Source: Chitinophagaceae bacterium
GTDB taxonomy: Bacteria > Bacteroidota > Bacteroidia > Chitinophagales > Chitinophagaceae
Reading direction: 5' to 3'
DNA length: 64,000 nt
Assembly: GCA_947476485.1 (NCBI GenBank)
Contig: CANJQU010000011.1
Span: forward strand, 1-64,000
Below are positions 1 to 47,705 of the stretch, one piece after another (the stretch's first letter is position 1; the number at the start of each line of letters is the position of its first letter). The notes under the pieces were generated by a model. It was not told the origin of the DNA, searched no databases, and saw only the letters and a list, made by a program, of their open reading frames with translations. The position numbers were made by a program, and so were the translations under genes.

Positions 1-227
1 ACGGAGAACTGATAATGACACAAATGAAACAGATTAAGTAAACTATATTTGTAACAGTGAAGCAACTAAATAACTCACTCATTTTTGGGATTAACTATGG
101 TGGGTCAGTTTGGCGAGGAAAAGAGGGGTCACTTTACGCGGAATATCCATTATCGTTCAATGCTGGTACAGTTTAACCTAATAACGGCTACCGTTTATCT
201 CATTTACTGTTTACTGCAATCAACAAG

Positions 228-1325
228 TTACTTTTTAAGAAGATCAAAAAGCTCAGTATTGATATATAATGTCTCCTTCCAAACCTTCTTCGATTGCAAT
301 ATGCCTAATTTCTCAAGCTCTTTAAGATATTTAGATGCGGTAATCCTTGAAATTTTAAGCCTGTCAATCAGGTAATCAATTTTGCTGTAAGGGTGTTCAA
401 ATAAAAGCTCTAACAATTCCTTATTATATGATTTTTCAGCTTCGATCTTCACTTTTTCTTGTGTCCGTATAAAAAGCTTGTTTATTTCCTGAACCTGATT
501 AATGGTCTCTTTTGCGGTAACCTCTACTCCTCTTAGTATGTATAATATCCATTCTTCCCAATTATCCTTCAGGCGTATTTCCTGTAATAGCCGGTAATAA
601 TCAGCTTTGTTATCAATGATGTAGGCACTTAAATAAAGAATAGGGCTTTCAAGTAGATTATGCAGGATAAGGTATAGTACGTTAATGATTCTCCCTGTTC
701 GTCCATTGCCGTCATAAAATGGATGAATACTCTCGAACTGGTAGTGCTGAACCGCCAGTTTAATCAATGGTGAAATATCATCATCCTCGTTTAAGTATTC
801 TTCCAGATTTTTCATTAGGCGGAGTATGGTATCATAATCATCCGGCGGAGTATATATAACTTTTCCTGTTGCAGCATTTCTTAATGCGGTACCGGGTAGT
901 TTACGGATTCCGGCATTGTTTTCTTCCAATACTTTTTGAGTTTCAATTATAGCATTCGTATTTAAAAAGCCTCTCTTTTGAATGAAATGAAACCCAAATA
1001 GCGTAGCCTCACGGTAGCGCAGCACTTCCTTTGTTGCAGAATCTATTTGAGTGTTTTTTGCCGATAATGCCTGATACAATTTATCCTGCGTTGTTATGAC
1101 GTTTTCAATTTCAGAACTGGCTCTCGCTTCTTTTAGAATGATGGCATTTAATAGTATGTTGGGATTGGGAAGGGTATTTGCAAGTCCCTTTAATTCTGCC
1201 AATGCTACAGACGATTTAACCAATTGGCGTAATACCTTGATTGTCTCGATCTTTTCCTTTGCTGGTGGCAAAAAAGGCAAGTCATTAAAAGCCTTTTCGG
1301 TATCTACTTCGTTTATCTTCTTCAT
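228..1325 (-). CDS. Fic family protein (Fic/DOC-type AMPylase-like, C-terminal winged helix)
   Basis: Motif HPFYDGNGRTGRI matches Fic core HPFx(D/E)GNGRxxR; C-terminal HTH-like region (YLIDRLKISRITASKYLKELEKLGIL). Confidence 0.92.
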   Translation of the reverse strand: MKKINEVDTEKAFNDLPFLPPAKEKIETIKVLRQLVKSSVALAELKGLANTLPNPNILLNAIILKEARASSEIENVITTQDKLYQALSAKNTQIDSATKEVLRYREATLFGFHFIQKRGFLNTNAIIETQKVLEENNAGIRKLPGTALRNAATGKVIYTPPDDYDTILRLMKNLEEYLNEDDDISPLIKLAVQHYQFESIHPFYDGNGRTGRIINVLYLILHNLLESPILYLSAYIIDNKADYYRLLQEIRLKDNWEEWILYILRGVEVTAKETINQVQEINKLFIRTQEKVKIEAEKSYNKELLELLFEHPYSKIDYLIDRLKISRITASKYLKELEKLGILQSKKVWKETLYINTELFDLLKK

Positions 1326-1580
1326 GTATAATGTTTATGAATGACCTCTTTGTCATGCAAAAATAAGGCTATTTTTTATACATGACAAGCCCGTCATGTA
1401 TAAAACTTATACACGAGGAAATCTGTAGTAATTGTGATGAACGGAGGTTTTCATACTGTAATCAACAGGAATTCAAATTATCTCGACATAATCTGACTGA
1501 AATCTAATAGGCGGGCGAATCAGAATTAAAATACCTTGATCTGGGACTTGTCTCAATTGTCTTTTCGGTAATTTTGCCGA

Positions 1581-2444
1581 ATGTCACAAGAACAGAATAG
1601 AGAATTATCAATACCCCGGCATCAGTTTCCCATTAGACTTATACAGAAGTTTAGCCAGGAATATGATGAAATGTTAAGCCATTATCCCCTTAATCAAAAA
1701 ATTGAGCTAACGGAACATTTACTGCAAGCCTTAGGTTATATAAGTGAATTTGCAAAAACGAATGATGAAAAGGATTATAAAAAATATGTAACCTTAGAAG
1801 ATGAATTGCTGAAAAAATACCGGGCGAACCTGAACCCTTATGCAAGGCAACAATTTTTTCAATATTTCGATTTTGAAAGAGTAATGGTTATAAAGTTTTT
1901 GCTAAGTGCCGAAGATTCTGATGTTATAAAACCGGGGGAGCAGCGGTTAACACCCGATGAGATAGAATGGTTTATTAATAGCTGCCAAAGGCTGCTTTAT
2001 AATTCAAGGCATTATTTGTATTTACAAGATCATGGGGACAATGTGCCCGCCGTTACCTTAAACGCTCCTGTTAGTATAGCAGATGAACCCGATAAGGGCA
2101 TGACCAAAGCCCGCCAGCTACTTGCCATTTATTACTTTCTGAAAGCATCTTTAGGTATAGAAGGCCGGGATAGCAGTTCGATCAGCGGAATAGCCCGTTT
2201 TATTCATCTGCTAACAGGTACAAAATTTACTACCGTTCAGAACTCTGATATTTATAAGAAATACCTGCAAATGCCGAACTATAAAAAGGATAACCAGCTT
2301 ATAACTGATTTAAAATTCATCCGTCCTTATTTTGTGGACTTAGGCTTAGACAGTGCGGTAAAGATGATTGACGAAGAGATAAATAGGGCTATCAACGAAT
2401 TACCGTTCGGAGAACGCAAGAAATATAAAAATGATCAAGGGTAA
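1581..2444 (+). CDS. hypothetical protein of integrative element
   Basis: Long ORF, 287 aa, followed by terminator-like hairpin; family not recognised. Confidence 0.7.
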   Translation: MSQEQNRELSIPRHQFPIRLIQKFSQEYDEMLSHYPLNQKIELTEHLLQALGYISEFAKTNDEKDYKKYVTLEDELLKKYRANLNPYARQQFFQYFDFERVMVIKFLLSAEDSDVIKPGEQRLTPDEIEWFINSCQRLLYNSRHYLYLQDHGDNVPAVTLNAPVSIADEPDKGMTKARQLLAIYYFLKASLGIEGRDSSSISGIARFIHLLTGTKFTTVQNSDIYKKYLQMPNYKKDNQLITDLKFIRPYFVDLGLDSAVKMIDEEINRAINELPFGERKKYKNDQG

Positions 2445-2469
2445 TCCCTGTTACCGTTAAACGGCTGTT

Positions 2470-2608
2470 CCGTTTAACGTAAGAATATTTAGCCGACTAT
2501 AAAAAGTCGGCATTTTTTATTCAATTACGCTGCGAAATCAGTGTTATAGGGGCTTTTAGCGTTTAACGTTTATACCGTTTAACGTAACACCAGTTACCGT
2601 TTATCGCT
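2470..2608. repeat. iteron-like cluster of CCGTTTAACGT words
   Basis: CCGTTAAACGG (2454-2464), CCGTTTAACGTAA (2470-2482), GCGTTTAACGTTTA (about 2559-2572), ACCGTTTAACGTAA (about 2574-2587), related TTACCGTTTATCG (about 2594). Confidence 0.6.
2492..2520 (+). terminator. rho-independent terminator
   Basis: GCCGACT ATAAAA AGTCGGC followed by ATTTTTTAT, just after ORF 1581-2444. Confidence 0.75.
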
Positions 2609-2733
2609 AAAAATAGGTTCAGCCGTCTGTAAAAGGATGGCTTTTTTGTTGCCAAAAATTCTCAAAGATAGGTACACCAATAGGGGCATCCCACCGCAAA
2701 AATCGGTCGGAGCTTTGTACCAAAATCGGAAAT

Positions 2734-3033
2734 ATGGTAAAGACTAATGCAAAGCAAATGAAATCTCACACTGTAAATGTGAATGTAGTAATGGATGTAA
2801 TGGGCATCCTGTTTAACAACGATATTCCTTTTCAGGTTGAAGGAATAAACGAGCATGAGAACACCATGCTTATCAGGACAACCACGAACCCAAAACTAAC
2901 CCGGCATAAAAAAGCACTAAATAACCTTAAAACGCTTATGTCTGATTATAGCTATTACCGACATGAATCGGAAAGTAGTAATACCCATAATAGCGATGCA
3001 GGTAACAACGATTATGAAGATGAAGACGAATAA
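2734..3033 (+). CDS. small acidic-tailed hypothetical protein
   Basis: 99 aa ORF; paralogous pattern to 3998-4240. Confidence 0.55.
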   Translation: MVKTNAKQMKSHTVNVNVVMDVMGILFNNDIPFQVEGINEHENTMLIRTTTNPKLTRHKKALNNLKTLMSDYSYYRHESESSNTHNSDAGNNDYEDEDE

Positions 3034-3061
3034 TGAAAATTAGTTAACCAAAAATTTCAAT

Positions 3062-3901
3062 ATGACAGATTTTATAAAAAATTGTTTGCATTGCGGAACG
3101 TCCATGCAAACTCAAAGACGCACTAAAAAATACTGCTCCGATACCTGTAAGCAGGCAGCCTTTTACAGCCGGGGCGCACAACCATCGAATGCGTTAAACG
3201 GCAGCGAACCGTTAACCGCAATAGAACTTGATGGGGAAGACACCGATGAGGAACAGATAGACCGTTCAAACAACGTTGAGCGGGAGTCATTCAATGATGA
3301 GCAATTACCGGATAAGATACCGTTTAACGTTAGAAACCCTACCAACCAACAAACCATACCAGAGCCATATAACGCTAAACGTAGGGAAGAAGATAAGACC
3401 AAAGGAAACTCTAAACGCTTCGATGATACCGAGGTTGAAGAAAAACCTTACGAATGGGTTCGCTCAGAATTGATTGACGAAATTGCCGACTATGTGCAAG
3501 ACAACTATAAGACATCCGAAATGTTTCAGTATCCAAAGAAATACTGGTACGGTTCAGATTTGGAAAAGGTAAAATGGGTAAGTGTTCGGTTTCTGTGCAT
3601 AATAGAAAACCTGCTTCATTTTGATAATTCAATAGTTGAACGCAAGACTTTGATAACTATAAATAAGGCGTTGATAGCTATGATGGACGCATGGAACTTT
3701 AAATACATGCCGCACAATTACCCGCTGAAAAATGAAATAAAAGCACAGCAACAAAGGATAGAGAAAATAATAAGCGTATGTGATAAAAGTATTCGGCTTG
3801 GCTTTAAAAGGGACACAAAAGTTAAGCTAATCGCTTTAAGGTTTCAACTGGCAGACCTCGTACCAAAAGTTAGGTTTCACAACCTTGATTTTTCAAAATA
3901 G
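3062..3901 (+). CDS. hypothetical protein with N-terminal zinc-finger-like CxxC...CxxxC motif
   Basis: CLHCGTSMQTQRRTKKYCSDTCKQAAFYSR. Confidence 0.7.
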   Translation: MTDFIKNCLHCGTSMQTQRRTKKYCSDTCKQAAFYSRGAQPSNALNGSEPLTAIELDGEDTDEEQIDRSNNVERESFNDEQLPDKIPFNVRNPTNQQTIPEPYNAKRREEDKTKGNSKRFDDTEVEEKPYEWVRSELIDEIADYVQDNYKTSEMFQYPKKYWYGSDLEKVKWVSVRFLCIIENLLHFDNSIVERKTLITINKALIAMMDAWNFKYMPHNYPLKNEIKAQQQRIEKIISVCDKSIRLGFKRDTKVKLIALRFQLADLVPKVRFHNLDFSK

Positions 3902-3997
3902 AAACGGCAAATATGGGAAATAAAGCACGGGAGCCGCCTCTTAACTGAGGCTGCAAAGAAAGAAGATGAATTTTAAACAACTAAAAAACAAAACAAA

Positions 3998-4240
3998 ATG
4001 AAGACAGTAATTGTGAAAAAAGAAATAGAAGTGCCTGTTGGGATACTGATGGAAGTAGCTGACCTGCTAATTGAAAATGAACTCTCCCACGAGATCATCG
4101 GAACTGATGCAGAGAATAATTGCCTCACCCTGGAGATTGCTTATGAAAAAGATGAAAGGGACACAATCCATGAAATTGAAAATCTTATAGATGATTATGA
4201 GGAGGAGGAAGACGATGAGGAGGAAGATGAACAGAACTAA
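3998..4240 (+). CDS. small acidic-tailed hypothetical protein
   Basis: 80 aa ORF ending EEEEDDEEEDEQN, followed by terminator hairpin. Confidence 0.55.
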   Translation: MKTVIVKKEIEVPVGILMEVADLLIENELSHEIIGTDAENNCLTLEIAYEKDERDTIHEIENLIDDYEEEEDDEEEDEQN

Positions 4241-4260
4241 ATATTCATGCTGATAATTGC

Positions 4261-4294
4261 TTGATGCAGGAAGGCGAAAGCCTTTTTGCATCAA
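4261..4294 (+). terminator. rho-independent-like hairpin
   Basis: TTGATGCAGGAAGGC GAAA GCCTTTTTGCATCAA. Confidence 0.65.
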
Positions 4295-4378
4295 GTAAAT
4301 GTTGCCGAATAAAAAGTTAAAAAGACCCCATAAGGAAAAATATAACCACATTGATAATCAAGTAGTTGTAACTTAGCC

Positions 4379-4666
4379 ATGAGAAAAGAGAAGAAGAATA
4401 AAATCATCCCATTTAGAGGGAAAATCGATAGTGTCGGAGTAGAAGCAGAAGATCAGATGCCTTTAGCAAAGTGCAGGGAACTGCTGAAATGTAGGGGCAA
4501 GAAATATACTGATGAAGATATACTACTGATAAGGGATTGGTTTTATAAACTTGTTGAACTTACTTACGATGAATACTTTATTAATCAGCAAGCGTGTATT
4601 ATAATACCACTAACAGAAAATCAAAATGATGACAATGAGGAACGCCATTATTTACGTGCGGGTTAG
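4379..4666 (+). CDS. hypothetical protein upstream of recombinase
   Basis: 95 aa ORF overlapping the recombinase start. Confidence 0.5.
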   Translation: MRKEKKNKIIPFRGKIDSVGVEAEDQMPLAKCRELLKCRGKKYTDEDILLIRDWFYKLVELTYDEYFINQQACIIIPLTENQNDDNEERHYLRAG

Positions 4667-6209
4667 CACTGAAGAACAATCAGAAAAGGGTTACAGCCTT
4701 GCGCATCAGGAAGAGAGACTGCGGAATTATTGTAAGCAGCACAACATCACCGTAGTTGGCTTTTACAAAGAAGACCATTCGGCTAAAACATTCGAGCGGC
4801 CTGCTTTTAATGAGTTATTATCCTACCTTAAAAAGAACAAAAAAGCCGTTGACCTACTATTGTTCCTGAAATGGGATAGGTTTAGCCGTAACGCAGGAGA
4901 TGCCTATGGCATGATAAATACGCTGCACAAACTCGGAGTAGAGCCACAGGCTATGGAGCAACCGCTGGACTTATCCGTACCCGAAAACAAAATAATGCTG
5001 GCATTCTATCTTGCTGCGCCCGAAGTGGAGAATGACCGCCGCTCACTAAATGTAATTGCCGGGATGCGCAGGGCTATGAAGGACGGCAGATATTGTACGA
5101 CTGCACCTAAAGGCTACAAGAATGTACGCAACGACATGAACAGGCCGATCATTGTGCCGGGAAATGATGCTCATTTGGTACGATGGCTTTTTGAAGAAGT
5201 AGCTAATGGTATCAATAACGTAAAAGACCTTTGGCGAGTAGCGGTCAAAAAAGGGCTAAAGGTGGGTAGAAGCAATATTTTCTACCTGCTTCGCAACCCC
5301 GTTTACATGGGGAAGCTTTATGTTCCTGCCTACAAAGATGAGGAAGCAATGATGGTAAAAGGGATACATGAGCCGTTAATTTCCGAAGGGCTGTTTTATG
5401 AGGCACAGGATGTATTAGATGGTAAGAAAAGAAAACAGGCATCCGTACAAACGGGTAAAGCTGAATTGCCATTGAGGGGCTTTTTAATCTGCCGTAAATG
5501 CGGTAACAAGTTAACAGGCAGTGCCTCTACAGGAAGGAGCGGTAAATACTTCTATTATCATTGTACGAGTAAATGTGGGGAAAGATACAAGGCAGAAGAA
5601 GCCAATGACCACTTTTTTTCGGAACTGAAAAAATTCAGCACCTATGAAGAAGAAATTTCACTTTTCGAGGGTATTGCTGCCGATTATTATAAAAAGGCAG
5701 GGAAGCATAAGAGTATTAGCTTAAAAGACATAGACGAGGCTATAGAGAAGAACCAAGCAAGGATAACCAACGCATTGCGTAAAATGTCTGATGATGAAAT
5801 AACCTCTTTGGATTACAGGGAGATTAAAAACCTCTACGAACCTGAAATAGAGAAGCTTACCAAAAAGAAATATGACTTGAGTAAGGTAGATGATAACCTG
5901 ATGGCGTACATCAGCACAGCGACAAAGGTACTGCGTGACTTGCCGAACTACTATGAGAGATCAACGTTATCTACTAAGCAAAAGCTGATTGGTTCGATGT
6001 ACCCTGAGAAATTGGTTTATGAAAATAAATCTTATCGAACCACAAGAATTAACGAGGCTGCCCGTGTAATATGCAACCCTGACGGGCTTTTAGAAGGATT
6101 AAAAAAAGGACAGGCTTCCGAAATTGGAAGCCTGTCCGAACAGGTGAACCCATTGGTACTCGAACCCGAGACGCATTCACTAAAAGTGCATTTGCAAGCT
6201 TCAGAATAG
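4635..6209 (+). CDS. large serine site-specific recombinase (resolvase/invertase N-terminal, recombinase and zinc-ribbon domains)
   Basis: AIIYVRVSTEEQSEKGYSLAHQEE catalytic N-terminus; LKWDRFSRNAGDAYGMI; zinc ribbon CRKCGNKLTG...CTSKCG; C-terminal coiled coil. Confidence 0.95.
   Translation: MRNAIIYVRVSTEEQSEKGYSLAHQEERLRNYCKQHNITVVGFYKEDHSAKTFERPAFNELLSYLKKNKKAVDLLLFLKWDRFSRNAGDAYGMINTLHKLGVEPQAMEQPLDLSVPENKIMLAFYLAAPEVENDRRSLNVIAGMRRAMKDGRYCTTAPKGYKNVRNDMNRPIIVPGNDAHLVRWLFEEVANGINNVKDLWRVAVKKGLKVGRSNIFYLLRNPVYMGKLYVPAYKDEEAMMVKGIHEPLISEGLFYEAQDVLDGKKRKQASVQTGKAELPLRGFLICRKCGNKLTGSASTGRSGKYFYYHCTSKCGERYKAEEANDHFFSELKKFSTYEEEISLFEGIAADYYKKAGKHKSISLKDIDEAIEKNQARITNALRKMSDDEITSLDYREIKNLYEPEIEKLTKKKYDLSKVDDNLMAYISTATKVLRDLPNYYERSTLSTKQKLIGSMYPEKLVYENKSYRTTRINEAARVICNPDGLLEGLKKGQASEIGSLSEQVNPLVLEPETHSLKVHLQASE
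6100..6137 (-). terminator. strong rho-independent terminator on minus strand
   Basis: Perfect 12-bp stem GGACAGGCTTCC GAAATT GGAAGCCTGTCC with an A7 run at 6101-6107 (T-tract on minus). Confidence 0.8.
6149..6197 (-). pseudogene. tRNA-Lys(UUU)-like 3' half (anticodon arm, variable loop, T arm, acceptor), probable att-site remnant
   Basis: Minus strand ATGCA CTTTTAG TGAAT GCGTC TCGGG TTCGAGT ACCAA TGGGTTC A has canonical tRNA spacing from position 27 to 73 with some mismatches; followed by the terminator at 6100-6137. Confidence 0.5.
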
Positions 6210-40593: not shown

Positions 40594-41178
40594 CTAATTT
40601 TTCATCAGCTTTGCTGACATTATTTTGCCATCTACACCATGCCACAACATTACGTATAGTCCATTAGCCCACTCCTTTGTATCAATTCCCGTTTTCCTAT
40701 TTTGTATCTGTACGTCTTGTGAGAATACTACCTGTCCTAAAGTATTTAGTATTATTAAATTACCCTCAGAGTTTGGCGGAGTAATTATCTTGACTTCCTC
40801 TTTCGCAGGATTAGGATAAACACTTATTGCAGGTTCATCCACCCTATAAACATTATTATTTACTGACAGCGATGTATAGCCAACATAGCTTACAAATGCA
40901 CCACCGCCGGGTTAGCTGCGCTTGTATCAAAATTGCCATACGTAGTTCCCTCAGTGAACGTTTTAGAACCGCTATAAACAACAGCAACATAACCTTTTAA
41001 ATAAGGTACTATAGAAAACGGACGATCAATGCTACTGCCGCCAAATATCTTATCGGTGATTCTATTTCCGGAATCATCTATTGCTAATAACCAACAATCC
41101 TGCGAGCCAATATCGTCAATTGTAGAATCAGGACAAGGGCTAGGGTTTGTGCTGCCATATACCAGGAAGCCGCCCCAC
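40594..41178 (-). pseudogene. truncated, frameshifted T9SS secreted protein
   Basis: GGFLVYGSTNPSPC...DCWLLAIDDSGN...NFDTSAANP / frameshift near 40900-40912 / GGAFVSYVGYTSLSVNNNVYRVDEPAISVYPNPAKEEVKI...; the two ORFs are in different minus frames and the 5' part is missing. Confidence 0.7.
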
Positions 41179-41556
41179 GCAGATGCCGCGATCACAATAA
41201 AACCCCAAACCGCAGTTGCCATCACGGACACGACAGCTAATGAAGACGCAACAGTGACTACAACAAGTGGTCACAATACCTTTTTTCAAAAACTGGGAAC
41301 CAGGCTTTTCCCGCATCACCCAGTCGGCGGTCGGCGCGATGCAAAGCTTGCACTCACATTCACACTATGTGGTCTTGTCTTTTCACCTCTTGGTATTGCA
41401 GCCCTGGCGTTCGGCATCCGCGCACTTAGAGCCCATACCCGCGATCGCGACATCGCCATCGCCAGCATCATTCTCGGCAGCATCGAGATAGTGATTATGA
41501 TCTTCCTTACACTCTACTTTCTTGTACGGGGGCCGGCTCTTTATTTGTATCTATGA
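41179..41556 (+). pseudogene. DUF4190-like small membrane protein lacking its native N-terminus
   Basis: AKLALTFTLCGLVFSPLGIAALAFGIRALRAHTRDRDIAIASIILGSIEIV; homologous to 45960-46376 but without a signal peptide; ORF runs back into antisense of the T9SS remnant. Confidence 0.55.
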
Positions 41557-41705: not shown

Positions 41706-42563
41706 ATGGAGCAGGGAGAATTGTTTGCGTCAAACGAAAAAAATGACCGCCCCAATAAATTGGGACAATCAAGTATTTACTATAAACAAGCTGGCAGTAT
41801 TTTGAATCCGACGACTGGATTTATGGCGAGCTATGACTATACATTAAATCCTTACTCTGGCTGTGCCTTCGGATGCAGTTACTGCTATGCTGCATTTTTT
41901 GCAAGAGATAATGAATCTAAAGAAAATTGGGGGTACTGGGTGAATGTAAAAGAAAACGCGTTAGAAATATTGAAGAAATTTCGAAAAAAACCTTTAATCA
42001 ATAAAACTATTTATATAAGTAGTGTTACGGATCCTTATCAGCCAATTGAACGAAAACTTGAATTGACAAGAAGTATTTTGAGAGAATTGTTGAATTACCA
42101 TACTCCGAGAATTGTAATTCAAACAAGAAGTCCGCTCATAACAAGAGATATTGACCTTTTTATGAAGTTCGAGCATATTCAAGTTAATATGACAATTACA
42201 ACAGACAGTGAGCGAGTTCGCAAAATCTTCGAGCCTTACTGCCCTAGTAACAAGGATAGACTATCTGCGATTAAAGAGATTCACGATGCGGGAATAAATG
42301 CCTGCATTACAATGACCCCACTCCTACCTATTGAAAGTCCAATCGAATTTGTTCATTCATTGAAGGCGACAGGAATAACCAAGTTTATCGTTCAGCCATT
42401 TCACCAAGACAGAGGGAAATTTACAGCTGGAACACGGGAAGAAGCGTTAAAGCTATTCAATGAATTTAATTGGACTACCGACCGGTATCAAGAAGTTGAA
42501 GACATTATTAAACAATATATTCCGGATATAGGTATCGGTAAAGAAGGCTTTAAACCAATATAA
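41706..42563 (+). CDS. SPL-family radical SAM protein
   Basis: CxxxCxxC cluster NPYSGCAFGCSYCYA (41862-41885); TIYISSVTDPYQPIERKLELTRSILREL; IQTRSPLITRDIDLF. Confidence 0.92.
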   Translation: MEQGELFASNEKNDRPNKLGQSSIYYKQAGSILNPTTGFMASYDYTLNPYSGCAFGCSYCYAAFFARDNESKENWGYWVNVKENALEILKKFRKKPLINKTIYISSVTDPYQPIERKLELTRSILRELLNYHTPRIVIQTRSPLITRDIDLFMKFEHIQVNMTITTDSERVRKIFEPYCPSNKDRLSAIKEIHDAGINACITMTPLLPIESPIEFVHSLKATGITKFIVQPFHQDRGKFTAGTREEALKLFNEFNWTTDRYQEVEDIIKQYIPDIGIGKEGFKPI

Positions 42564-42565
42564 TT

Positions 42566-45022
42566 ATGGAGCAAAAACTTTTAGATTGGATTAAAAACCA
42601 GCAAAATACAATTGATCAAATAATTTTCGAAGCAGGAACGGCTTATCTAAAAGAAAATAAACACAAGGACAACTTCCATTTTGATCTAATTGAATGTCAG
42701 TCTGAAAGCTTTAATTTGATAGCTAACAAGGATTTGTGCTACGATCGACCTAATACCGCATTCGTCTACTCTCTTTGGTACCATGCGCGAAGGGTTAATA
42801 CATTCATAAAATATTTTGCCTCTGCTATCCTAAAATCGGATAATAACGTAATAGAGATATTTGATTTAGGTGCTGGCACAGGTGCGGTTCAATTTGCTGT
42901 TGGGCTCGTTTGCATCGGGTTAAAAACTCTAGGGCTTAGAACACCAAAAATCCGCTTAATTAATATTGATTCAAGTCCAATAATGTTATACTATAACAGG
43001 GATTTTTTGTGGAAATCATTTTTGAATCACTATTCTTCACTGCAGAATATTCAATTCGAAACAGAATACAGCGTCAACTCTTGGAGTGTAAATACCGAAT
43101 TAAAAGCGCAAAATCCTTGGTTGGTAGCCAGCTATTTGTTTGATATGTCCGACCAAAAAGATGCAATTACTAAGAACTTCCTTTCACTAATAAACTACTA
43201 TAAACCAGACACTTTTCTACTTCTTACTTCTAACCAAGCCGAAAAAGTAAAAATGTTTCATTCTGTGTTAGATAAAGTAAAACTCGAAGGTTATTTTGTC
43301 GACAATATCAAGGACTCCTCCTTACTTTTCGATGGTCCTCTTAATAAGGTAAATGCCTTTAGAACAGAGCTTGGGAAACAATATTCAGGAAAGGGAATAA
43401 GTTCTCATACGAGCTGGAGGGACAGTAGTTTCGTTGGGGCTATTTTAAAGAACACCAATATTAAACTGAATCTAATCACTAAGCCTGAATTCAAAAAAAT
43501 AGATTTATACAATACAAAAATTGCAGTTAGAAGAGATGTCAAACTAAGTGAAAAGCAAAAAGATGCAAGCGATTTCTTAGGGAGACCTTCGATAATTGTT
43601 GGCCCTGCCGGGAGTGGCAAATCAATAGTAATTACAGAGAAAATCAAAAATATTTGTGTACAGAGAAATTATAGTCCGAATCTAAAAATACTGGTTACGT
43701 CTTTTAATAAAGGCCTGATAAAGAAATTAGGCGATTGGATCGAAGATTTACTGACACCAGCTTCGGGGCGTCGAGAATATATTAAAGACATACACGGACA
43801 CTCTGACGAAATTTCCAAATTCTATTTTAGAGACTCGAATAATCCCAATATTATACTGCTAAATTTCGACCTTTTACCAACTCAACTGGGCAACTTGACT
43901 GCAGGCAGACTAATTTTCGATAAACAACATAAGTTTAATATCAGAGATTGTATCACTCAACTAAAAAAAGAAGAGAATATTACCGACGACCGGTACGATC
44001 ACATTTTAAATCCTGAGTTTATTTTCGAAGAATATCATCGAATAATTTATGGCTTGAGAGTAAAAACCAAAGAAGATTATCTTAAAATTAAACGGAGTGG
44101 CAGATGGATAGGCCTACGAAAAGAACAAAGAGAGCTAGTATATAAATGTATTCAAAAGTACAAGTACCACAACGATAAAAATAACATTGATTCTATTACG
44201 ACGAGAAGAGAACTCTTACTGGATAAGTTAGTAAACAAGAAGCTAGAACTAAAATTCGATTACATCTTGGTTGATGAATTTCAGGATTGTACCAAAGCTG
44301 ACTATGAAATATTTTACAACATAATCAAAGATGTAAATGACTTAACTCTATCTGGCGATTTGGCACAAGCAATTCATATTGGGAAAAGTGCAGATATTCC
44401 CAGAGATGAAAAAATGAAAAGAAGAGAATATTTTTTGCTGGAAGGCTCGTATAGATTGCCACATCGCATCAGTGAAAGCATTAAAAAACTTTCAGAAGTC
44501 ATTGTTGAGCGGTGGAGTAAAAATGAAGCTACAAAGGAAATTGCACCGGTGAAAAATTCACCGCCGGGTGCCCGACCAATTATTGTTTATGCCTCGTCTA
44601 TGGATGTAATGACAAACAAAATAAAATCAATTTTGGACGTCTATCGGTCTTATGATGTTAGTAAAATAACAATTCTTGAAAAAGATCCGGATTTAGCTCT
44701 TGCTCTATCACTACTGGGAATATCATGCGAAACCGACACGATACTTAGATTAAAAGGACTTGAAAAAGAATGTGTTTTATGGTCGAGTAGAATTGATATA
44801 GATGATGAGAATGAATCTTATGAGTTTATTTATACGATCTTAACAAGAACGAGCAGTTTATTAATTATCGCATTATCAGACAAAACAAAAAATTACTATA
44901 AGAAGATAATAAACTATCTCGATCAAGATAAAATAATATTATGGGATCAAGAAACTAAAGATAAATACCAGTCTTTCCGAGAATCCGTCAAAATTGAAAT
45001 GGTAATGGAAGATAATGGCTAG
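42566..45022 (+). CDS. SAM-methyltransferase-like domain fused to SF1/UvrD-like helicase
   Basis: DLGAGTG (42863-42883); Walker A GPAGSGKS (43601-43624); Walker B VDEFQD (about 44270-44287); LSGDLAQAIH; LEGSYRLPHRI; RLKGLEKECVLW; YTILTRTSSLLIIAL; begins 2 nt after upstream stop. Confidence 0.88.
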   Translation: MEQKLLDWIKNQQNTIDQIIFEAGTAYLKENKHKDNFHFDLIECQSESFNLIANKDLCYDRPNTAFVYSLWYHARRVNTFIKYFASAILKSDNNVIEIFDLGAGTGAVQFAVGLVCIGLKTLGLRTPKIRLINIDSSPIMLYYNRDFLWKSFLNHYSSLQNIQFETEYSVNSWSVNTELKAQNPWLVASYLFDMSDQKDAITKNFLSLINYYKPDTFLLLTSNQAEKVKMFHSVLDKVKLEGYFVDNIKDSSLLFDGPLNKVNAFRTELGKQYSGKGISSHTSWRDSSFVGAILKNTNIKLNLITKPEFKKIDLYNTKIAVRRDVKLSEKQKDASDFLGRPSIIVGPAGSGKSIVITEKIKNICVQRNYSPNLKILVTSFNKGLIKKLGDWIEDLLTPASGRREYIKDIHGHSDEISKFYFRDSNNPNIILLNFDLLPTQLGNLTAGRLIFDKQHKFNIRDCITQLKKEENITDDRYDHILNPEFIFEEYHRIIYGLRVKTKEDYLKIKRSGRWIGLRKEQRELVYKCIQKYKYHNDKNNIDSITTRRELLLDKLVNKKLELKFDYILVDEFQDCTKADYEIFYNIIKDVNDLTLSGDLAQAIHIGKSADIPRDEKMKRREYFLLEGSYRLPHRISESIKKLSEVIVERWSKNEATKEIAPVKNSPPGARPIIVYASSMDVMTNKIKSILDVYRSYDVSKITILEKDPDLALALSLLGISCETDTILRLKGLEKECVLWSSRIDIDDENESYEFIYTILTRTSSLLIIALSDKTKNYYKKIINYLDQDKIILWDQETKDKYQSFRESVKIEMVMEDNG

Positions 45023-45457
45023 TAAGGGTATCCGTATCTCGGTCCGCCCAGAGTCTCCTTTTTTCAAGGTACTCGGGGCAATCAGGGTACAAAAGCTGAA
45101 ATTTCATGCTATCCAAAATAGCGCTGAATATCTCATTAAAACTCACCTTCATATTTACAAACGAAACCACTTATCTGGCATCATTTTCCAAAGTCCGGGA
45201 AATCAAAGCCCAAATTCCACTCAAACCCGCACCTGTAGCCAAAAGAAATTTACATCATATACAGCCCGCAGCACATCATCTGCCGTATACGCGACATCAT
45301 AAAACTTCAATTTTTTACCTTCATATTTCAGTACGACCTTTGAGCCAAAAAAGGAAAAAATACACCCCGATCTGGAAGATCCGGGCATTGAGTACCTTGC
45401 TGATCTTTGTGAATATATACCGTATGGACATCACAAATTACACCTGTTTATTAATTG

Positions 45458-45505
45458 CCCCGGCTTTTAAGCCGGGGATGGACGGCTAACAATACGGCTT
45501 TAGCC
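45458..45505 (+). repeat. single REP-like copy related to 27709-27760
   Basis: CCCCGGCTTTTAAGCCGGGG + 18 bp + GGCTTTAGCC-TAAATACG. Confidence 0.75.
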
Positions 45506-45959
45506 TAAATACGAAAAGTGCACTTTTAAAGTCAATTTAGTATTAGTTTATAATATACGTATTAAATAATTCGATATTCAAAGTGAGCAACAATTGAGCA
45601 AGTTTTGTGCAAGAATTTCGTGGATAATCGACATTAACTTATTGATAATCACAACGAAAACATTTTCAGCAGTTTTTTTAAAAAAAAGTTGCGCAGTACA
45701 GCAGAACGCTATAACATATGCCAAGTGGAGAATGCCCCACAGCAAGTGAATGTGGGTTATTATAGCCCGTAGTGAGCTCGCCCAACTAGGAAATCTTAAT
45801 GACCATTAATATCAGCCACCGTAAAACTTTTCACCAAAAACCAATGCTACATATATCAAATAAAATATTACAAATAAAACGGGGCATTGAAACGATAACA
45901 ATGTAAATCTCCCTATCCTGAAAATCCTGATCAAAACCTGTACCTTAGCAACGTAGAAA

Positions 45960-46376
45960 ATGGAAGGCTCCATGAAAAATTTATTCATCATTTTTTTATC
46001 GCTGTTATTGTCCGGTGTTGCTCTTAAGGCAGAAGCGGGCTTTTACGTGAAAAAAAATGCCGCTGAGACTTCCGTCTCTTCCTCCGAAAGCATTCTCGCC
46101 GGCCGTAAAAGAGCAGAACGCAGGAGGCACAAAAAATGGGAACGCGAGAATGATAATGCTTACCGCATAAAGCAGGCAAAAATTGCCTTCAAATTTGCAT
46201 TATTGGGGTTGGCTGTTTTCCCGCTCGGCATCCCGGCTATCGTTCATGGCGTCCGCAGCATTAAAAAGAAAGAATGGTATTTCCACGATATGGCGCTGAC
46301 CAGCATCATCTTCGGCTCGCTGGAAATATTGGCGCTTGCATTCTGCGTTACACTGGTGGTGTTTATGCTCCTTTAA
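45960..46376 (+). CDS. small membrane protein, DUF4190-like
   Basis: Signal peptide MKNLFIIFLSLLLSGVALKAEA; two TM C-terminal domain. Confidence 0.75.
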   Translation: MEGSMKNLFIIFLSLLLSGVALKAEAGFYVKKNAAETSVSSSESILAGRKRAERRRHKKWERENDNAYRIKQAKIAFKFALLGLAVFPLGIPAIVHGVRSIKKKEWYFHDMALTSIIFGSLEILALAFCVTLVVFMLL

Positions 46377-46421
46377 TATGCCGGGACCCAACAAAGAAAA
46401 CGATGAGCGCAATACTCATTC

Positions 46422-46462
46422 GACCTCACCCTCTCCTTCGGAGAGGGCCGGGGAGAGGTCTA
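46422..46462 (-). repeat. CTCTCC-type stop-codon repeat
   Basis: Minus strand TAGACCTCTCCCCGGCCCTCTCCGAAGGAGAGGGTGAGGTC. Confidence 0.85.
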
Positions 46463-47548
46463 CCGCGCATCAAAGTCTATCACCACCTTCTCCGTCCGCG
46501 GATGGGCCTGGCAGGTAAGCACATAGCCTTTCTGAACCTCGTGTTCATCAAGTGCATAGTTCACCTCCATTTCCACCTCACCCTCGGTCACCAGTGCACG
46601 GCAGGTGCAGCACACACCACCCTTGCACGCATAAGGCAGGTCGGCGCCGGCTTTCAGGGCTGCGTCCAGTATGCTTTCCCCCACAAATGGCACTTCCATC
46701 TCAAAGGTCGTTCCATCAAGGGTTATGCTCACCTTGCTTGCAGGTCCGCCCTGGTTTTTGTGAGTGGCCACCCACTTCTCATGCTCGGCCTTAGGTTGGT
46801 CCGGAGACGTGAATAGCTCAATGTGAACATTGCTTTGCGGCATGCCCAGGTCCATAAGCTGCTGGCGCACTGAAAGGATCATATCCTCCGGGCCACAGAT
46901 GAAAGCTTCGTCAATGGTATTTATATCTATCAGCGACCTGCAGAATTCAGCACACTTTGCGGCGTCTATGCGACCGCTGAACAATGGGATGTCCATATAC
47001 TCGCGGCTCAGTATGTAGTATACCCTCAGGCGCAGCATATGCTTGTTCTTCAGCGCTTCTATGGCCTCCCTGAAAATGATGGAATTTTTAGAGCGGTTAC
47101 CGTATACCAGCGTAAAGCTGCTGTTCGGCTCTTCCTCCAGCACACTCTTCATGATGCTCATGATCGGCGTGATGCCGCTGCCGGCAGCAAATGCAAGGTA
47201 TTCTTTATGCTTTGCTTCTTTGTTTTTTATAGTGAAGTTGCCCATAGGCGGCATCACATCCAGCACATCGCCGGCCTTCAGCTCGCCATGTGCATAGGTG
47301 GAAAATTTGCCTTCCTCCACTTTCTTGATGGCCACGCGCAGCTCACCGTCTTTTGGGCTGGAGCAGATAGAATAAGACCTCCGCACTTCGGCGTCATCAA
47401 AGTGGCGGCGAAATGTAAGATACTGCCCGGGGGCAAACCGGAACTTATCTGCCAGTTCACCCGGCACCTCCAGCGATACAGAAACGCAATCAGCAGTTTC
47501 CGGCCGCACGTCCTTGACCTTTAAAGAATAGAATTTGAGCACAGACAT
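46460..47548 (-). CDS. ferredoxin reductase with C-terminal 2Fe-2S domain (PaaE-like)
   Basis: FAPGQYLTFRRHFDDAEVRRSYSICSSP; FAAGSGITPIMSIMKSVL; PYACKGGVCCTCRALVTEG. Confidence 0.92.
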   Translation of the reverse strand: MSVLKFYSLKVKDVRPETADCVSVSLEVPGELADKFRFAPGQYLTFRRHFDDAEVRRSYSICSSPKDGELRVAIKKVEEGKFSTYAHGELKAGDVLDVMPPMGNFTIKNKEAKHKEYLAFAAGSGITPIMSIMKSVLEEEPNSSFTLVYGNRSKNSIIFREAIEALKNKHMLRLRVYYILSREYMDIPLFSGRIDAAKCAEFCRSLIDINTIDEAFICGPEDMILSVRQQLMDLGMPQSNVHIELFTSPDQPKAEHEKWVATHKNQGGPASKVSITLDGTTFEMEVPFVGESILDAALKAGADLPYACKGGVCCTCRALVTEGEVEMEVNYALDEHEVQKGYVLTCQAHPRTEKVVIDFDAR

Positions 47549-47705
47549 AAAATGGTTGCAAATGTACAAAAAACCACAGGCGAAAAAAGGCAAAAGGATA
47601 ATTGGTATAAAAGCCACCGCCGATACCTCAGTTTCCCCACGATCATCGCTTTACTTTTACCCTGTTGCCCTTTTGATCAATTATCTTACTATCTTGCTTT
47701 AGACC

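Follow-up and report, generated by a model that had tools for sequence, protein, structure and literature searches.

What does a radical SAM protein of the SplB-like COG1533 family, a widespread family largely lacking known substrates, do when its gene is followed almost immediately by that of a helicase fused to a methyltransferase-like domain? This question is raised by a two-gene unit in a window of 64,000 nucleotides, the whole stretch analysed, from a bacterium of the Chitinophagaceae. To our knowledge, few radical SAM enzymes other than the prokaryotic viperins, whose products are modified nucleotides, have been implicated in bacterial immunity.

The two-gene unit and its flanks

The TAA stop codon of the radical SAM ORF is followed after 2 nt by the ATG of the 818-aa ORF (Table 1), and the coordinates, start codons, lengths, and 2-nt gap reported in the first-pass annotation of the window match the ORFs exactly. 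The pair had also been described as AT-richer than its neighbours and as bounded by broken genes on the left and decayed sequence on the right. Both descriptions hold, since the G+C content is 34.8% in the pair versus 46.0% in the remaining window, the minus-strand fragments on the left appear by eye to derive from a broken gene, and a conserved gene was looked for at the right boundary (45023-45959) and none was found. Among 45 ORFs of at least 150 aa, the helicase gene ranks first in AT-richness and the radical SAM gene third. Direct or att-like repeats flanking the pair were searched for and none was found.

At a distance from the unit, the AT-rich left end of the window (1-6200) contains two ORFs recognised by eye, one Fic-like (228-1325) and the other serine-recombinase-like (4626-6209), and is probably a second mobile element. 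To the right of the unit, a GC-rich repeat between genes, about 47 nt long (46415-46462; CCCTCTCCTTCGGAGAGGGCCGGGGAGAGG...), is present in many copies in most of 20 congeners.

Table 1. Features of the two-gene unit and its flanks (positions in the window).
Feature	Position	Strand	Basis or remark
Radical SAM gene, 285 aa, COG1533/PA0069-like	41706..42563	+	Pfam PF04055, NCBIfam
Fusion gene, 818 aa: N-terminal domain of probable class I methyltransferase fold and SF1A (UvrD/PcrA-like) helicase	42566..45022	+	PF00580, PcrA profile, motifs
Fusion N-terminal domain, residues 1-320	42566..43525	+	DLGAGTG, NID (D135), ASYLFD; AF2, Foldseek
SF1A helicase core, approximately residues 326-805	43541..44980	+	Walker A K352, DEFQD motif II
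Left flank, two fragments (40594-40842, 40890-41231), probably one broken gene	40594..41231	-	By eye
Left-flank ORF, matched in its C-terminal part by the left gene at the congener junction in L059 (G004)	41029..41556	+	
Right-flank gene kept in congeners	45960..46376	+	With 46460-47617 (-), marks the insertion junction

Distribution and genomic neighbourhoods of the pair

About 1,540 genome searches, covering the genus, order, class, phylum, and another family and including some genomes more than once, together with an additional search of GTDB genome contigs and plasmids for homologues of the 818-aa protein, yielded 11 further loci in Bacteroidota, located in different chromosomes and in one conjugative plasmid, pRUNSL02 of Runella slithyformis. 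In all 12 loci, the genes are adjacent and on the same strand, with the radical SAM gene directly upstream of the helicase gene, and their spacing, mostly within a few bases, ranges from an overlap of 38 nt, counted from an upstream start codon, to a gap of 18 nt. Identity of the 11 homologues to the window proteins is roughly 35-50% for the 818-aa protein and 60-69% for the radical SAM protein. The converse search with the radical SAM protein (E<=1e-40, 299 genomes) gave three hits, all three coupled to the helicase, and relatives of this subfamily without the helicase were never seen in it. The coupling proposed earlier is thus obligate in the loci covered by both searches. The distance matrices of the two proteins are correlated (Mantel r 0.57, p 0.0014), with poorly resolved trees.

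The pair is rare, occurring in about 10 of 1,500 genomes, and its spread is patchy, with carriers in two congeners besides the genome of the window and, elsewhere in the phylum, in 2 of 394 genomes. The homologues were never found apart and do not occupy a single conserved housekeeping locus, so that neither outcome named beforehand as refuting the first-pass reading occurred. The recurrence of the two genes in unchanged order at the 11 further loci, in differing surroundings, goes beyond chance. The earlier view of horizontally acquired cargo is supported. This distribution in unrelated positions is the pattern of mobile cargo. In phage records, helicase relatives were absent and only distant radical SAM relatives were found, at most 37% identical, and one single-protein scan of viral contigs returned no relative.

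Restriction, BREX, or Dnd genes repeatedly lie beside the pair. In five of the 12 loci, PADLOC detects unambiguous defence genes at most about 5 kb from the pair, namely Dnd in two loci and BREX, type I restriction, and type IIG restriction in one each, a descriptive figure from neighbour proteins picked by eye. The two Dnd cases are independent, one comprising DndC (5e-189) and DndD (3e-113) in L018 and the other DndC (3e-152) with a DndD/PbeC-type protein (2e-152) encoded 0.6 kb downstream in L027. PADLOC also detected BrxB (5e-56) and BrxC (E 0) in L022; in L029, a ZorA-like gene and apparently more BREX genes come after these two. In L020 it detected a type I MTase (1e-185) together with a specificity subunit (2e-106), and in L019 a type IIG enzyme (5e-122). 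Moreover, Doc-like and HNH-like genes are near the pair in L003 and a HipA-type pair in L004. Four of the 12 loci (the window, L015, L016, and L021) are isolated, with no adjoining RM, BREX, or Dnd genes.

The insertion site of the window is nevertheless a hotspot of defence cargo. The corresponding junction in congener G020 (L058 7362-10264) carries MTase_II (1e-118), REase_II (5e-58), Vsr (7e-22), and a HicB-like gene, and a HicB-like gene also occurs there in congeners G004 and G001. As a control, 20 defence proteins, mostly from the 12 loci and three from the G020 hotspot, were used as queries and matched 1 of 60 segments of 20 kb drawn at random from three host genomes. By the same rule, 2 of 12 test loci were positive when, in a strict leave-one-out count, only matches to proteins from other loci were admitted. 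Neighbourhoods rich in defence genes are supported, but formal enrichment is modest. Among random proteins, 1 of 20 had any PADLOC match at 1e-20.

In two loci, a set of genes recurs around the pair (L017 1461-7881 and L020 4753-15040). An AAA_15/DUF3696 ATPase and MIT_C gene pair lies immediately 5' of the radical SAM gene in both, accompanied by a nearby N6_Mtase-HATPase fusion gene, a small regulator-like gene, and a WYL regulator, identified with Pfam in L020 and by eye in L017. These genes could constitute a larger, separate system.

Conserved features of the two proteins and their relatives

The radical SAM identity initially read from CAFGCSYC is confirmed by the CxxxCxxC cluster motif (C53-AFG-C57-S-Y-C60), present in all 12 proteins, and by Pfam Radical_SAM PF04055 (E 9e-19, 68.7 bits vs a gathering cut-off of 29.5), which places the protein in this superfamily. 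In addition to the three cluster cysteines, Y59 and Y61, which adjoin the cluster, and C179 (EPxCPxN) are invariant in the 12 proteins, and C200 is kept in 11 of them. C179 is a mark of the paired subfamily, since it is missing from four aligned stand-alone relatives, and a C-terminal region (QPFHxxxGKF...GKxGFxP) is likewise missing from the aligned stand-alone relatives. The best NCBIfam matches are to the PA0069/Rv2578c family and the radical SAM mobile pair protein B (NF033668, NF038135, TIGR04470; 129, 94, and 106 bits), which have the same radical SAM core; the scores are far under the curated cut-offs (360 for rSAM_PA0069, matched with 129 bits). Whereas the partner of mobile pair protein B is a second radical SAM protein, the partner here is the helicase fusion.

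With spore photoproduct lyase (SPL, SplB), the protein shares the radical SAM fold, the CxxxCxYCY motif, and COG1533 kinship, and the radical-relay tyrosines Y97/Y99 of SPL correspond to Y59/Y61, which stand-alone relatives have too. Unlike SPL, it is always paired with a helicase-MTase gene, and its hosts, in contrast to those of SPL, are not known to form spores. Identity with SPL was rejected, TIGR04070 scoring 33.5 bits against a cut-off of 400. The hydrogen donor of the enzyme from B. subtilis, C141 (PMC3742179), is 43 residues past the last cluster cysteine, and no counterpart exists in the 12 proteins, none of which has a cysteine between the cluster and +118/+119. Thus, the SPL reaction, to which the first-pass annotation had alluded, is unlikely.

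The 818-aa protein proved to be the fusion that had been claimed, of a methyltransferase-like domain and an SF1/UvrD helicase, with DLGAGTG at residue 100, Walker A GPAGSGKS at 346, VDEFQDC at 569, GDLAQ at 597, GSYRLP at 627, LKGLEK at 729, and YTILTRT at 756. Pfam UvrD-helicase PF00580 (E 6e-22, 79 bits vs a gathering cut-off of 23), together with Walker A, DExQD, and motifs III, IV, V, and VI, assigns the motor to the UvrD/PcrA type of SF1A. In the seven full-length fusion sequences aligned, the residues of Walker A and motif II do not vary. Its nearest solved relatives are the DNA helicases PcrA, Rep, and UvrD (PcrA 2pjr, profile E 2e-16), a kinship that favours DNA as the likely track of the motor. 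Only about 95 residues separate GSYRLP from LKGLEK, which, set against the usual length in related helicases, suggests that the 2B subdomain between motifs IV and V is short or missing.

The N-terminal domain has the glycine-rich motif I and acidic motif II of class I SAM-dependent methyltransferases, with D100, G102, G104, G106, and D135 invariant in all 12 proteins. It has no significant family match in Pfam, PADLOC, or PHROGs, and a PDB sequence search with its profile gave chance-level matches only. An AF2 model from a two-sequence input (pLDDT 59, pTM 0.66) is weak, and with it Foldseek retrieves Rossmann-type methyltransferases, including GRAS proteins, mitoribosome-assembly methyltransferase-like proteins, and HEN1; a single-sequence AF2 model of the complete fusion was uninformative (pLDDT 33). 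Judging from motifs and model, the fold is probably that of a class I methyltransferase. The (D/N/S)PP(Y/F/W) motif of DNA adenine/cytosine amino-methyltransferases is missing, the motif IV region reading ASYLFD, and no nuclease domain is recognisable in either protein.

Gabija GajB and other defence SF1 helicases likewise provide a UvrD-like motor in defence islands, and the PADLOC matches to RTasHel (5e-17) and GajB (6e-13) are explained by general UvrD similarity. However, the partner of the Gabija helicase is the nuclease GajA and that of RTasHel a reverse transcriptase, whereas here it is a radical SAM enzyme, and the N-terminal methyltransferase-like domain is an additional element. No named-system model in PADLOC-DB 2023 covers both genes, which have only weak PDC-M41B/M30B and generic helicase matches. 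Nor was the gene pair found described in the literature searched, which left aside most subscription papers and all bioRxiv preprints, in agreement with the earlier statement that no such system was known. The pair is real, conserved, mobile, and defence-associated, and within the reach of these resources it is undescribed.

Candidate functions of the pair

Judged from sequence, the two genes may form a mobile DNA-processing cassette of defence islands, in which their coupling is obligate, and a function in DNA-directed defence has, in our estimate, an even chance of being correct. The 818-aa protein would load on DNA, rather than RNA, via its UvrD/PcrA-like motor, bind SAM through its N-terminal domain, and, possibly in a physical complex, hand bases or strands over to the radical SAM protein for a 5'-deoxyadenosyl-radical reaction on the nucleic acid. 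The net effect would be protection against invading DNA, such as that of phages, either because DNA is modified or marked or because foreign DNA is damaged or blocked. This reading is favoured by the constant pairing and tight coupling, the correlated distances of the two proteins, the patchy spread, the repeated proximity to restriction, BREX, and Dnd genes, the hotspot at the insertion site of the window, the DNA-helicase kinship of the motor, and the DNA-repair genes beside radical SAM relatives. The four isolated loci, the absence of a recognisable nuclease domain, the modest formal enrichment, and the lack of a published Bacteroidetes SOS motif upstream of the pair in the window count against it. 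A bolder version, which we consider rather unlikely, is an undescribed immune class in which a helicase fused to a methyltransferase-like sensor feeds nucleic acid to an SplB-like radical SAM enzyme, with C179 as the hydrogen donor or attachment site and radical chemistry on DNA as the immune reaction itself. A radical SAM subfamily that is always tied to a putative DNA motor and found repeatedly beside Dnd, BREX, or restriction genes offers a tractable handle on COG1533 substrates, the unit having two genes, about 3.3 kb, and clear catalytic residues.

The cassette could instead be a portable DNA-repair unit, in which the radical SAM protein would use SPL-like radical chemistry, with another hydrogen donor, perhaps C179, to reverse a lesion in a base, and the helicase-MTase would expose the lesion; it would travel with defence genes because it repairs damage from those systems or their targets. 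This is somewhat unlikely, yet several relatives lie beside DNA-repair genes. A second radical SAM gene of the host genome comes after a Y-family-polymerase-like gene, and the closest stand-alone relative by identity found in plasmids, from Staphylococcus saprophyticus (40-46% identical), belongs to an island of 2OG-Fe(II) oxygenase, DNA glycosylase, Ada, and MGMT alkylation-repair genes. In Bacteroidetes, genes for COG1533 SplB proteins are reported to serve DNA repair under SOS control (PMC8565304), and such proteins have been linked to ImuB-C neighbourhoods (PMC3765255). These associations support a nucleic acid as the substrate of the radical SAM protein and keep the repair reading alive, to which the tyrosine pair shared with SPL also lends support. 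However, C141 of SPL has no counterpart, the published Bacteroidetes SOS boxes are not seen upstream of the pair in the window (GGA-N5-TCC by scripted search and CTAA-N5-TTAG by eye), and the patchy spread and RM/BREX/Dnd surroundings are more typical of defence cargo.

Action on RNA is improbable. The N-terminal domain would then act like Rsm22/METTL17, and the radical SAM protein and motor would modify or repair tRNA or rRNA, e.g., after toxin attack. The model of the domain matches chains 8css_7 (E 1e-5), 8csr_7, 8csu_7, and 8d8j_0 of human and yeast mitoribosomal small-subunit assembly intermediates, which we take to be METTL17 and Rsm22, and the RNA methyltransferase HEN1 scores too. However, this fold similarity comes from a low-confidence model with which GRAS proteins and many small-molecule methyltransferases score equally well, Pfam does not find Rsm22 in the domain, and the motor resembles DNA helicases. 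A passive hitchhiker, i.e., a selfish or housekeeping pair landing in variable regions with no defence role, seems very improbable; a third of the loci are isolated among ordinary genes and formal enrichment is modest, but the active-site residues are strongly conserved over deep divergence, the pair has no transposase or integrase of its own, and its co-localisation with Dnd is repeated.

A known mobile pair of the same host genus, DUF5131-TcmP, follows the same broad logic of a three-Cys-motif radical SAM-like protein with a Rossmann-type partner, and hhalign relates the radical SAM profile to that of DUF5131 (probability 90, E 2e-6). That the pair is another form of DUF5131-TcmP with a helicase added is nevertheless largely refuted and extremely improbable, since the DUF5131 Pfam score (15 bits) is under the cut-off of 28.9, the N-terminal domain aligns with TcmP over only 18 columns around the SAM motif (hhalign probability 1.9), with no detectable homology and no match to TIGR04474 (TcmP) among the NCBIfam models, and the gene order is reversed, with TcmP before DUF5131 in four congener loci.

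The DUF5131-TcmP pairs themselves adjoin a Y-family-polymerase-like gene in L063 (congener G017) and, by eye, in L066 (G031), and a PA0069-type radical SAM gene in L065 (congener G003), which suggests that these three pairs are inserted at an SOS repair locus.
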